NCBI GenBank assembly: GCA_003661385.1
Contig: QMWA01000051.1
Coordinates: forward strand, 1 to 9,927
DNA from: Thermoproteota archaeon
GTDB lineage: Archaea; Korarchaeota; Korarchaeia; B14-G2
DNA: 9,927 nt
Direction of reading: 5' to 3'
A model generated the notes under the pieces. It ran no database searches. It saw nothing but the letters and a program-made list of their open reading frames with translations, and was not told the DNA's origin. The position numbers were made by a program, and so were the translations under genes. The stretch's first letter is position 1. Each line of letters starts with the position of its first letter. Below, one piece after another: positions 3,019 to 9,927 of the stretch.

Positions 3019-4061
3019 GCTATCACCTTAGGAAGCTCGTTGACTGTAGGCACCACCACAGCAGCTCCTAGCTCGAGCAGCTTGGAGGCGAGCTCGCCTG
3101 GAGCTGGGTGGGTGCTGTAGACTCCTATGAAGTAGGCTCCAGCTCTGAGGGCCATCTCAGCGTCCTCGGGGGAGTCTCCTACGTATGCTGCTGCAGTGAA
3201 GGGCTCCAGAGCCCTTAAGCTGGCCTCCAGGAGCCTCGGGTCTGGCTTCGAGGCCCTGACGCCCATTCTAGCTAGGTCCTCTGTGAAGACTGTGGCTCTG
3301 GGGTTGAAGTATGACATGAGGTGGCCTAGAACCTCCTCTGCAGACGCTCTAGACCTGCCTGAGACTATCCCAAGCCTCCCTCCAGTCGCCTTGCTAAGCC
3401 ACCTCAGGGTTCTCTCCTCTACTATGAGCTTCTCCCTCTCTATGAGGCCAGGTCTGCCTCCGACTACGACCCTGCCTGCTAGCTTGAGGTACCTGGTGGA
3501 CCCGTAGTAGACCTCGTCGAAGACTGATGCAAGCAGGCTGTCTGCTGACCTCTCAGGGTACCCTAGGTACTCCCTGACCTTGGCTAGGAGCTTTAGGCGC
3601 CTTGAGCTGCAGCTGGAGAGGAGCCTTCTGGTGAACTGAGCTACGCCTCCAGCTGCTAGCTCTAGGCCAGACTGCAGGGACCTCAGCATTGCAGTGCTGT
3701 CAGCTCTGGCTGGCGGTTTGCTTGGGAGGCTGAAGCTCCCTGGTTTAGCTTCCTCTGCGACCTCAGCTAGAGCCTCCTCGCTTAAGCCTGCTAGAGCTGA
3801 CATGACCACCACGTAGGCGGTGTCCCAGTCTAGGTTGTAGAAGCCTGTCATCCTAAGCCTGTACACTGCCTTGAGTACCTCCTGCTCAGGTAGGGATGCT
3901 CCAGTGAGGCTTAGGAGGATCAGGTTAGCTGCCTCCACTACCGCTCTGTCATAGGACTCTCTTGTGTCCACTAGAGTCCCATCTACGTCGAACACGACTG
4001 CGTCCACCTTGAGCTCTGAGAAGCCCCTGCATGCTCTGCTGGGCAGGCCAGCTGAGGTCAC
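3015..4061 (-). CDS. HAD-superfamily phosphatase, candidate histidinol-phosphatase
   Basis: The protein has 348 residues and all four HAD motifs: DVDGTLVD (25-32, nucleophile D25 and acid D27), a serine in IVSGRS (232-237), K272 in SKPDP, and GDSPEDAEMA (295-304). Between motifs I and II lies a cap of about 200 residues, much larger than in usual subfamily IA members. It includes a Ser/Pro/Ala-rich stretch (about 107-150) that may be a loop. The GTG start overlaps the hisC stop as GTGA, and the end overlaps hisB as TTGA, so it is cotranslated between the enzymes that make and precede histidinol phosphate. Inference: it dephosphorylates histidinol phosphate, as no other phosphatase (HisN, PHP-type, or HisB fusion) is present. 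A start at V19 would also retain the domain. Function moderately sure; HAD family certain. Confidence 0.9.
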   Translation of the reverse strand: MTSAGLPSRACRGFSELKVDAVVFDVDGTLVDTRESYDRAVVEAANLILLSLTGASLPEQEVLKAVYRLRMTGFYNLDWDTAYVVVMSALAGLSEEALAEVAEEAKPGSFSLPSKPPARADSTAMLRSLQSGLELAAGGVAQFTRRLLSSCSSRRLKLLAKVREYLGYPERSADSLLASVFDEVYYGSTRYLKLAGRVVVGGRPGLIEREKLIVEERTLRWLSKATGGRLGIVSGRSRASAEEVLGHLMSYFNPRATVFTEDLARMGVRASKPDPRLLEASLRALEPFTAAAYVGDSPEDAEMALRAGAYFIGVYSTHPAPGELASKLLELGAAVVVPTVNELPKVIA

Positions 4062-8117: not shown

Positions 8118-9455
8118 CTAGGGTATGGTTACCTCGAAGGGCCAGGGCGTCTTTAGGTACTCCTCGACAATTCTGCATGGTATTGAGAGAACGAAGGCCC
8201 AGCCACCTAGGCTTCGACTCCACATCCCCTTCCTCGTGACCCTTATCTGGTTGGCCCCTCTTTCGAGGTGGCCTAGGAGCTGGCCTATCCTTAGGGCCAT
8301 GCTATAGCCGCTTCTTTTCATAAGTGCGTCAAAGGGCTCGCCGAACTCCTTTTCGAAATCGCTTATCTTTAGCTTCAAGGCGCTTAGCCTCTCTGACACC
8401 CACCTCACGGCCCTCTCCTCCTTACTCACAATTCTTCCCCCGGCCACTGGGAGCCTGCCCCTCCCCACTGCCCTAACGTACTCCCTGCTCGAGCATGTGT
8501 TTATGTATTCGTAGCCCCCAGTGAAGCTCATTGCACCGCACCCAAAGCCTATCAGGGGACCAACCATCTCGAGCTCAACTGTGCTATACTCCCCTTTCCC
8601 CCGCCCAAACGAGTAGTATCGGAGCGGATGGTATCCCTCCTCGCCTAAAACATCAATGCAGGCATAGTACATTCGCTTGAACTCCTTCATGCCCGGCTGC
8701 TTGGGGACCCTTCCGCTTCTCATGAGCTCATGCATGCGGGTATATGGGGGGACTAGAAGCGGGTAGCACGTGATTTGGTCCACGCCCTGCTCGGCAGCCA
8801 GCCTTAGGTCGTGAGCCCACTCTTCAGCCGTCTGGTTTGGTATCATGTACATCATGTCGATGTTTATGAGGGCGAAGCCGGCGTCCTTGCAGTTTTCTAT
8901 GGCCTCTAGGGAGTCTTCGATGCTATGCCTTCTCCCAAGCATCCTTAGGTTTGGTTTGAAGAAGGATTGGACTCCTATGCTTACCTCCCTTACCCCAGCC
9001 TCTATCAGCAATGCGACCTTATCTTCGGTTAAGTCTTCGGGGTTTGCCTCTATTCCGAAGCTACATCCCTTCGAGACATTGAAGTTTTCGCCTATCGTTT
9101 CGATGACCTCAGCCCACTCCCTTCCTATCAGGCTAGGAGTCCCACCTCCTGCATGTACATCGACCACCTTTAGGTCTAAGTCGCTGAGAAGCTCACCTAC
9201 CATCCTTATCTCGGCTTTTAAGGCTGAGACATAGGCTTCGATCTTCCCCTTGCCCGCAATCTCCCTTACATACGGGCATGCGGGGCATAAGCCCCGACAA
9301 AAGGGGAAATGTATGTAGATTCCAATCTCCTTGCCGATAAATGTGTCATGTATGTGGCTTCTTAGGGCCTCCTCTCCCTCCCTACGGAAGGTTGCAGTAA
9401 AGACCTTCTTTATCCGCCCACCGATCCTGCCTAAGCCTTGGAGGTCAAGGATCAT
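8118..9455 (-). CDS. HemN/HemW-like radical SAM protein
   Basis: This is a radical SAM enzyme of the coproporphyrinogen oxidase-like group, about 445 residues. Numbered from the ATG at 9455: iron-sulfur cysteines C53, C57 and C60 in FCRGLCPAC, HAGGGTPSL (101-109), GIEANPED (134-141), GVQSF (161-165), DMMYMIPNQT (200-209) and the HemW-type GFGCGAMSF (303-311), then a winged-helix-like end. The aromatic residue usual between the last two cysteines is alanine here. The ATG at 9455 is preferred to the GTG at 9488: it has GGAGG seven bases upstream, and the TATA-like box at 9490-9497 predicts a transcript start near 9468. It is divergent from feoA. The role (haem synthesis, haem transfer or haem breakdown) cannot be settled from sequence. 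Confidence 0.9.
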   Translation of the reverse strand: MILDLQGLGRIGGRIKKVFTATFRREGEEALRSHIHDTFIGKEIGIYIHFPFCRGLCPACPYVREIAGKGKIEAYVSALKAEIRMVGELLSDLDLKVVDVHAGGGTPSLIGREWAEVIETIGENFNVSKGCSFGIEANPEDLTEDKVALLIEAGVREVSIGVQSFFKPNLRMLGRRHSIEDSLEAIENCKDAGFALINIDMMYMIPNQTAEEWAHDLRLAAEQGVDQITCYPLLVPPYTRMHELMRSGRVPKQPGMKEFKRMYYACIDVLGEEGYHPLRYYSFGRGKGEYSTVELEMVGPLIGFGCGAMSFTGGYEYINTCSSREYVRAVGRGRLPVAGGRIVSKEERAVRWVSERLSALKLKISDFEKEFGEPFDALMKRSGYSMALRIGQLLGHLERGANQIRVTRKGMWSRSLGGWAFVLSIPCRIVEEYLKTPWPFEVTIP

Positions 9456-9489
9456 GCGTGATCCTCCGATGGTAAGGTGGGTGCCCACG

Positions 9490-9497
9490 AAATAAAA
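9490..9497 (-). promoter_or_regulatory. TATA-like box of the radical SAM gene
   Basis: The minus strand reads TTTTATTT. The expected transcript start near 9468 lies about 13 bases before the preferred ATG, which supports the shorter protein. Confidence 0.5.
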
Positions 9498-9526
9498 GTG
9501 TTATCATTGCATCACATGGTAACACT
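9497..9526. promoter_or_regulatory. 30-bp inverted repeat, putative operator of the radical SAM gene
   Basis: The arms AGTGTTATCAT (9497-9507) and ATGGTAACACT (9516-9526) match at 10 of 11 positions around an 8-base spacer. The repeat abuts the upstream side of the radical SAM TATA box, where a regulator would affect TFB/TBP binding. Confidence 0.5.
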
Positions 9527-9570
9527 ATTCCGCCCCGCCAGAGCTTGGAGCTCGATCTCCGCGCGCCATA

Positions 9571-9581
9571 TTTTTAAATAA
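9571..9581 (+). promoter_or_regulatory. TATA box of feoA
   Basis: The sequence TTTTTAAATAA sits in a sharply A/T-rich patch after a GC-rich stretch. Transcription should begin near 9600-9603, which is downstream of the ATG at 9588 and raises doubt about that start. Confidence 0.6.
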
Positions 9582-9602
9582 TTTTAGATGACCCTAAAAT
9601 TA
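9579..9602. promoter_or_regulatory. 24-bp perfect palindrome over the feoA promoter, putative metal-regulator operator
   Basis: The arms TAATTTTAG (9579-9587) and CTAAAATTA (9594-9602) are exact inverse complements around a 6-base spacer. It runs from the TATA box to the predicted transcript start. TTAG/CTAA half-sites recall DtxR/MntR/SirR-type operators; the assignment to that family is inference. Confidence 0.55.
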
Positions 9603-9869
9603 GGGTTTAGCTTGCCTAAAAGTGGACGGGAGGTTCCACTAAGCAGCCTCGAGCCTGGGCAGAAGGGCATAGTCGTCCGTGTGGCTGGGCCACCCGATCT
9701 TAGAAGGCGGTTGATGGATATGGGGCTCGTTGGGGGCACGGAGGTTGTCGTAGTGCGTAAGGCTCCTCTAGCTGATCCCATCGAATACGAGGTTCGAGGC
9801 TACAACCTGAGCCTGCGTAGGAGGGAGGCAGATCTAGTCTATGTCACACCTGTTTATGGAGGGCGGTGA
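9588..9869 (+). CDS. feoA: FeoA-like small SH3-domain protein of ferrous iron transport
   Basis: FeoA is a small cytosolic SH3-like protein that assists the FeoB iron transporter. The 93 residues contain the family core: PLSSLEPGQKGIVVRV (17-32), the LRRRLMDMGLVGGTEV (38-53) segment, RKAPLADPIEYEVRGYNLSLRRREA (57-81, with the family's G-Y/N-L-S-L-R) and a final VYV strand. The ATG at 9588 gives a 16-residue extension and lies in the palindrome. A TTG at 9612 would give 85 residues starting PKSGREV, the usual FeoA length, and fits the TATA box better, so the shorter form is a serious alternative. Divergent from the radical SAM gene and followed closely by another reading frame. Confidence 0.9.
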   Translation: MTLKLGFSLPKSGREVPLSSLEPGQKGIVVRVAGPPDLRRRLMDMGLVGGTEVVVVRKAPLADPIEYEVRGYNLSLRRREADLVYVTPVYGGR

Positions 9870-9872
9870 GGT

Positions 9873-9927
9873 TTGCTAATCCCTATGGCGATGCTTCCTG
9901 AGGGTAAGGAAGCCGTGATAGTTGATG
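9873..9927 (+). CDS. Start of next gene, probably FeoB (partial)
   Basis: Only 18 codons are visible. Frame-checking leaves one open frame, from TTG at 9873 (or ATG at 9885 or 9891): LIPMAMLPEGKEAVIVD. GGAGGG (9858-9863) lies nine bases before the TTG. Assignment to FeoB rests on position after feoA; the G1 GTPase loop would come just beyond the edge, so it is unproven. Confidence 0.4.
   Translation, partial: MLIPMAMLPEGKEAVIVD

Follow-up and report, generated by a model that had tools for sequence, protein, structure and literature searches.

A candidate DtxR/IdeR-type operator overlaps the promoter of an archaeal ferrous iron transport gene

The inverted repeat at positions 9579–9602 of the DNA analyzed here is very probably an operator at the feoA promoter for a metal-dependent repressor of the DtxR/IdeR family, whose metal-loaded dimer would block RNA polymerase. 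This proposal was built from sequence comparisons. They show the repeat itself, where it lies, how it is conserved, and that a regulator gene is present, and from them we infer that a protein binds, that the metal is iron, that control is negative, and that polymerase recruitment is the step that is blocked. The window, meaning the whole stretch of 9,927 nucleotides that was analyzed, is the entire contig C51 of the genome of a little-studied archaeon, which is assembled in 206 contigs and is 91% complete.

Results

An inverted repeat lies between the TATA-like box and the predicted transcription start of feoA

The repeat is composed of the arms TAATTTTAG (9579–9587) and CTAAAATTA (9594–9602), which are exactly complementary over 9 bp each and are separated by the 6-nt spacer ATGACC. 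An earlier note on this DNA had described a perfect 24-bp palindrome. The exact 9-base arms and the 6-base gap are indeed present, but the spacer is asymmetric and the word perfect therefore does not apply. The promoter region comprises the following features.

9571–9579, + strand: TATA-like box TTTTTAAAT for feoA, predicted from its A/T-rich sequence and the spacing in relatives
9579–9602, no strand: inverted repeat TAATTTTAG-N6-CTAAAATTA, the proposed operator, recognized by its arms and by the top matrix score
9584–9597, no strand: 14-bp core TTAGATGACCCTAA, which departs at one position from the consensus TTAGGNNNNCCTAA for a single DtxR/IdeR dimer
9601–9624, no strand: weak possible second site 22 bp downstream, with core TTTAGCTTGCCTAA at 9606–9619 and two mismatches
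9612–9869, + strand: feoA, ferrous iron transport protein A (Pfam FeoA, 4.1e-25; alignments of relatives)
9885–9927, + strand: probable 5′ part of another feoA-like gene; the contig stops after 14 of its codons (MAMLPEGKEAVIVD)

The repeat lies directly 3′ of the TATA-like stretch. Archaeal transcription begins ~25 nt past the TATA box, and therefore feoA transcription is predicted to start near 9602, where the repeat ends. This arrangement agrees with the earlier proposal that the repeat sits between the TATA box and the predicted start, and the Pfam match agrees with the proposal that the target is an iron transport gene. The feoA reading frame is open from an in-frame ATG at 9588, inside the spacer of the repeat. 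Because transcription begins ~25 nt past the TATA box, the TTG at 9612 is more likely to be the coding start. As for the partial gene at the contig end, relatives carry tandem feoA genes.

The gene divergent from feoA encodes a HemN/HutW-like radical SAM protein (8118–9488, − strand) whose best NCBIfam model is that for anaerobic heme degradation by ChuW/HutW (174.6 bits, cut-off 400). This protein is possibly heme- or iron-related. On the promoter side of its gene, at 9494–9529, an imperfect inverted repeat (AAAAGTGTTATCAT / ATGGTAACACTATT; 14-nt arms, 86%, 8 nt apart) may be the site of another regulator; its half-site (ATGGTAACAC) showed no enrichment in the genome relative to the control. 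Past the radical SAM gene are histidine biosynthesis genes, of which histidinol dehydrogenase was recognized by a match and the others by reading the predicted open reading frames. A perfect 22-bp palindrome, ACCCTAGGCATATGCCTAGGGT, with 11-bp arms and no spacer, is located at 2218–2239 within a hisH-like coding region. The 76-nt tRNA-Ser (aga) reported by ARAGORN at 3312–3387 (− strand) is probably a false positive because it resides inside a HAD-like open reading frame, has an unusual anticodon, and has no Rfam match.

Repeats with arms of at least 9 nt and spacers of 0 to 10 nt occurred in 48% of simulated whole windows. When the intergenic region (9489–9612) was simulated with an order-1 Markov model, the same class occurred in only ~0.6% of runs, a rate that does not yet count conservation, and the figure was 0.7% for the AT-rich 47 nt alone. 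Coincidence is a poor explanation of the repeat at 9579–9602. A second repeat with 7-nt arms (ACCCTAAAATTAGGGT) at 9591–9606 overlaps the main one.

The core of the repeat resembles the DtxR/IdeR box

The half-sites within the repeat are TTAGA and CCTAA, and the core is one mismatch away from the consensus, which is consistent with the earlier suggestion that the TTAG/CTAA half-sites resemble those of DtxR-family regulators. The 14-bp consensus was proposed by the authors of a study of IdeR from S. erythraea (PMC8464063). In that study, changing the first C to T in every CCTAA repeat did not significantly affect affinity, and specific binding was lost when both C's were changed (PMC8464063). 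The single mismatch in the window core, a C to T change at position 1 in one half-site, is of the same type as the change tolerated by IdeR. Note that this tolerance is suggestive when carried over to the present site, because residue 43 is Gln in the S. erythraea protein and Ala in the candidate regulator described below.

The consensus is the single-dimer form of the 19-bp DtxR/IdeR box TTAGGTTAGSCTAACCTAA, with which the window site shares the half-site, the TTAG-N6-CTAA spacing, and an iron transport target. Unlike that box, the window site has TTAGA for TTAGG in one half-site, has no clear second overlapping dimer site, and is part of an archaeal TATA/TFB promoter.

We scored the window with a symmetrised matrix made from the feoA-promoter sites of 23 distinct relatives, with the window excluded. 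Because the training sites were required to hold TTAG-N6-CTAA, the matrix measures resemblance to this class of site. By that measure the repeat ranked first with 19.9 bits, which is at the low end of the training range (15.0–35.0). Among 300 simulated windows the mean maximum was 4.8 bits and the highest was 15.3, such that none of the 300 reached 19.9. The runner-up in the window was the weak possible second site at 9601–9624, whose 4.45 bits are not significant alone.

Related sites are present at feoA promoters of other archaea

To assess conservation, we used 22 feoA loci from the same class (Korarchaeia, by our assignment), with L006, which belongs to another class, set aside and the site of the window itself uncounted. 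The consensus was found upstream of feoA with at most one mismatch in 19 of the 22 loci and with at most two in 20 (adding L027). No motif was found upstream of feoA in the same-class locus L003, which is among the closest homologs of the window, or in L006, and both absences count against the operator reading.

Exact motifs are concentrated upstream of feoA. Across 23 loci, one of which is from another class, there were 15 in ~6,200 upstream positions versus 0 in 64,600 positions elsewhere, and for 19 named archaeal loci the numbers were 13 in 3,990 versus 2 in 85,997. Records named Bathyarchaeota, Terraquivivens, Hecatellales, and Zestosphaera are among those with exact sites. The counts should not be read as independent trials, because the relatives have common ancestry and the named loci L112, L116, L136, L145, L151, and L156 belong to genomes that are also in the class set. 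Even with two mismatches allowed, the motif was absent from nine bacterial feoA controls, and it was also lacking at most methanogen feoA loci. The window genome is the sole member of its family among the genomes searched.

In many relatives the site starts ~8–12 nt after the beginning of a TATA-like box, and the corresponding distance in the window is 11–13 nt. Spacing like that of the window was seen in L004, L011, L012, L017, L018, L025, L027, and L028, and in other relatives (e.g., L016, L019, L020, and L022) a candidate TATA box is ~25–30 nt from the site. Tandem sites are present at feoA in L007, L009, L100, L101, and L108. In the last three loci, which are from other archaea, the tandem TTAG-N6-CTAA sites are ~17–19 bp apart and include TTAGA/TCTAA variants that resemble the left half-site of the window.

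A DtxR-family protein is encoded upstream of feoB

One DtxR-family protein, of 234 aa, was detected in the genome (G000:C165; Fe_dep_repr_C, 108 bits), and among solved structures it is closest to those of IdeR (best match 2.5e-34). Alignment revealed that the IdeR metal residues H79, E83, H98, C102, E105, and H106 (IdeR/DtxR numbering) are conserved, and that the Met10 ligand is replaced by Glu. In the recognition helix, the base-contacting IdeR positions P39, T40, and Q43 are changed to Ser, Ser, and Ala, respectively. Because the helix residues and Met10 differ from those of IdeR, the DNA specificity and the metal of this protein cannot be read from its sequence, a point that weighs against the operator reading. 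The DtxR-family proteins of other class members are more divergent, as in an example with 33% identity over 128 residues.

The dtxR gene is directly upstream of the single feoB found in the genome. This feoB starts on contig C165 and its remainder opens contig C45. The end of C165 (L032) and the start of C45 (L180) share 14 bases within feoB, and therefore the two contigs probably adjoin. No Fur protein to which a Fur box could be assigned was detected when the genome (91% complete) was searched with PF01475. A further regulator could be absent from the assembly, given its 206 contigs and 91% completeness. The earlier note would have taken a lack of conservation at related feoA promoters as speaking against its reading. 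Instead, TTAG-N6-CTAA is present at the feoA promoter in nearly all same-class relatives and several other archaea, and together with the DtxR-family gene in the same genome this supports the interpretation as a DtxR-family site.

Search for additional sites in the genome

The earlier note had also looked to copies of the palindrome near other metal genes, and here the genome offered no convincing site among those read. The 24-mer pattern has no second genomic copy at up to three mismatches. Sites within one mismatch numbered 21, versus 13 for the reversed control, and the others that we read were not convincing metal-gene promoter sites. Loose matches numbered 488 versus 195 in the reversed control, which we do not take as evidence because almost all of them hold two mismatches and our reading covered part of the first 50 or so. 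An exact TTTAGN6CTAAA on C10 was rejected because it is within a coding frame, as was one on C142 in GT-rich DNA upstream of a dehydrogenase-like gene, which is not a metal-gene promoter. The sites C20:6983 and C97:4238 are intergenic but are not at metal genes. No obvious site was evident by eye in the dtxR-feoB promoter, which counts against the operator reading.

Discussion

A DtxR/IdeR operator is expected to have a consensus core with at most one tolerated mismatch, to overlap the promoter of a metal-uptake gene, to be kept at orthologous promoters, and to have a DtxR-family regulator in the genome. The repeat has such a core, it overlaps the feoA promoter (judged by a predicted transcription start), it is kept at feoA in relatives, and the genome encodes the regulator on C165. 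Several metal-gene sites per genome are usual, though not strictly defining, and such a set was not found among the sites read in this incomplete genome.

We propose that, when ferrous iron is plentiful, a metal-loaded dimer would occupy the TTAGA and CCTAA half-sites and span from just past the TATA box up to the expected transcription start. Bound there, it would hinder RNA polymerase from joining TBP/TFB and so lower iron uptake, and when iron is scarce the repressor would leave the site. The likely repressor is the only DtxR-family member detected, whose gene is directly upstream of feoB. By analogy, TBP and TFB most likely would be allowed to bind while polymerase stays out. According to PMC2995911 and PMC4158304, archaeal repressors located just past the TATA box, such as MDR1 of Archaeoglobus fulgidus, allow TBP/TFB to bind and exclude polymerase. 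MDR1 is likewise an archaeal metal-dependent repressor that blocks polymerase recruitment from a position downstream of TATA (as cited in PMC2995911 and PMC4158304).

It is unlikely, though worth weighing, that the repeat is a DtxR-family operator whose regulator senses manganese or another metal, as MntR does. The best NCBIfam match of the protein is the MntR model (160 bits, below the cut-off of 350), its helix SPSSVTAMLQRL is similar to that of MntR (HPSSVTKMVQKL), and Glu replaces Met10. However, the target feoA and feoB, the neighbor of the regulator gene, both serve ferrous iron transport, Cys102 in the metal site is as in IdeR, and the best matches among solved structures are IdeR proteins.

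We consider it very unlikely that an unrelated regulator uses a half-site that resembles that of DtxR by coincidence. The outer arms of the window site (TAATT/AATTA) are unlike those of most relatives, which are often AAG/CTT, and no other regulon member was seen among the sites read in the genome, but the core and its position agree with the sites of relatives and no Fur was detected. Least probable of all is that the repeat arose by chance in the AT-rich DNA of the promoter, where such arms form easily, or that it is an RNA hairpin, whose stem is present in the predicted fold. The intergenic simulations and the conservation at feoA promoters of relatives speak against chance. Against the hairpin, the fold is unremarkable (z −1.39; 19 of 200 shuffles fold equally well), there is no Rfam match, and transcription is predicted to start where the repeat ends, such that feoA RNA would not contain it.

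A DtxR/IdeR-family operator at feoA is an instance of a switch type that is already well known; the instance at the feoA gene of the window is new. Archaeal DtxR-family regulons with a similar type of regulator and metal-gene targets were reportedly described by Leyn and Rodionov in 2015 (J Bacteriol 197:451). More tentatively, and in our view rather doubtfully, a divergent DtxR of archaea whose recognition helix resembles that of MntR may read the bacterial IdeR sequence at feoA, perhaps its sole target, with dtxR-feoB controlled separately. If true, feoA would be under iron control through one operator and dtxR-feoB under separate control. The general picture of such regulation is unchanged by the operator, which is useful for annotation and yields a directly testable prediction. 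With it, the recognizable DtxR-type operator at feoA reaches a family, presumably of the Korarchaeia, whose only representative in the genomes searched is the window genome, and the presence of the same element at feoA in several archaeal groups suggests a control of iron uptake that is old or has been repeatedly recruited.
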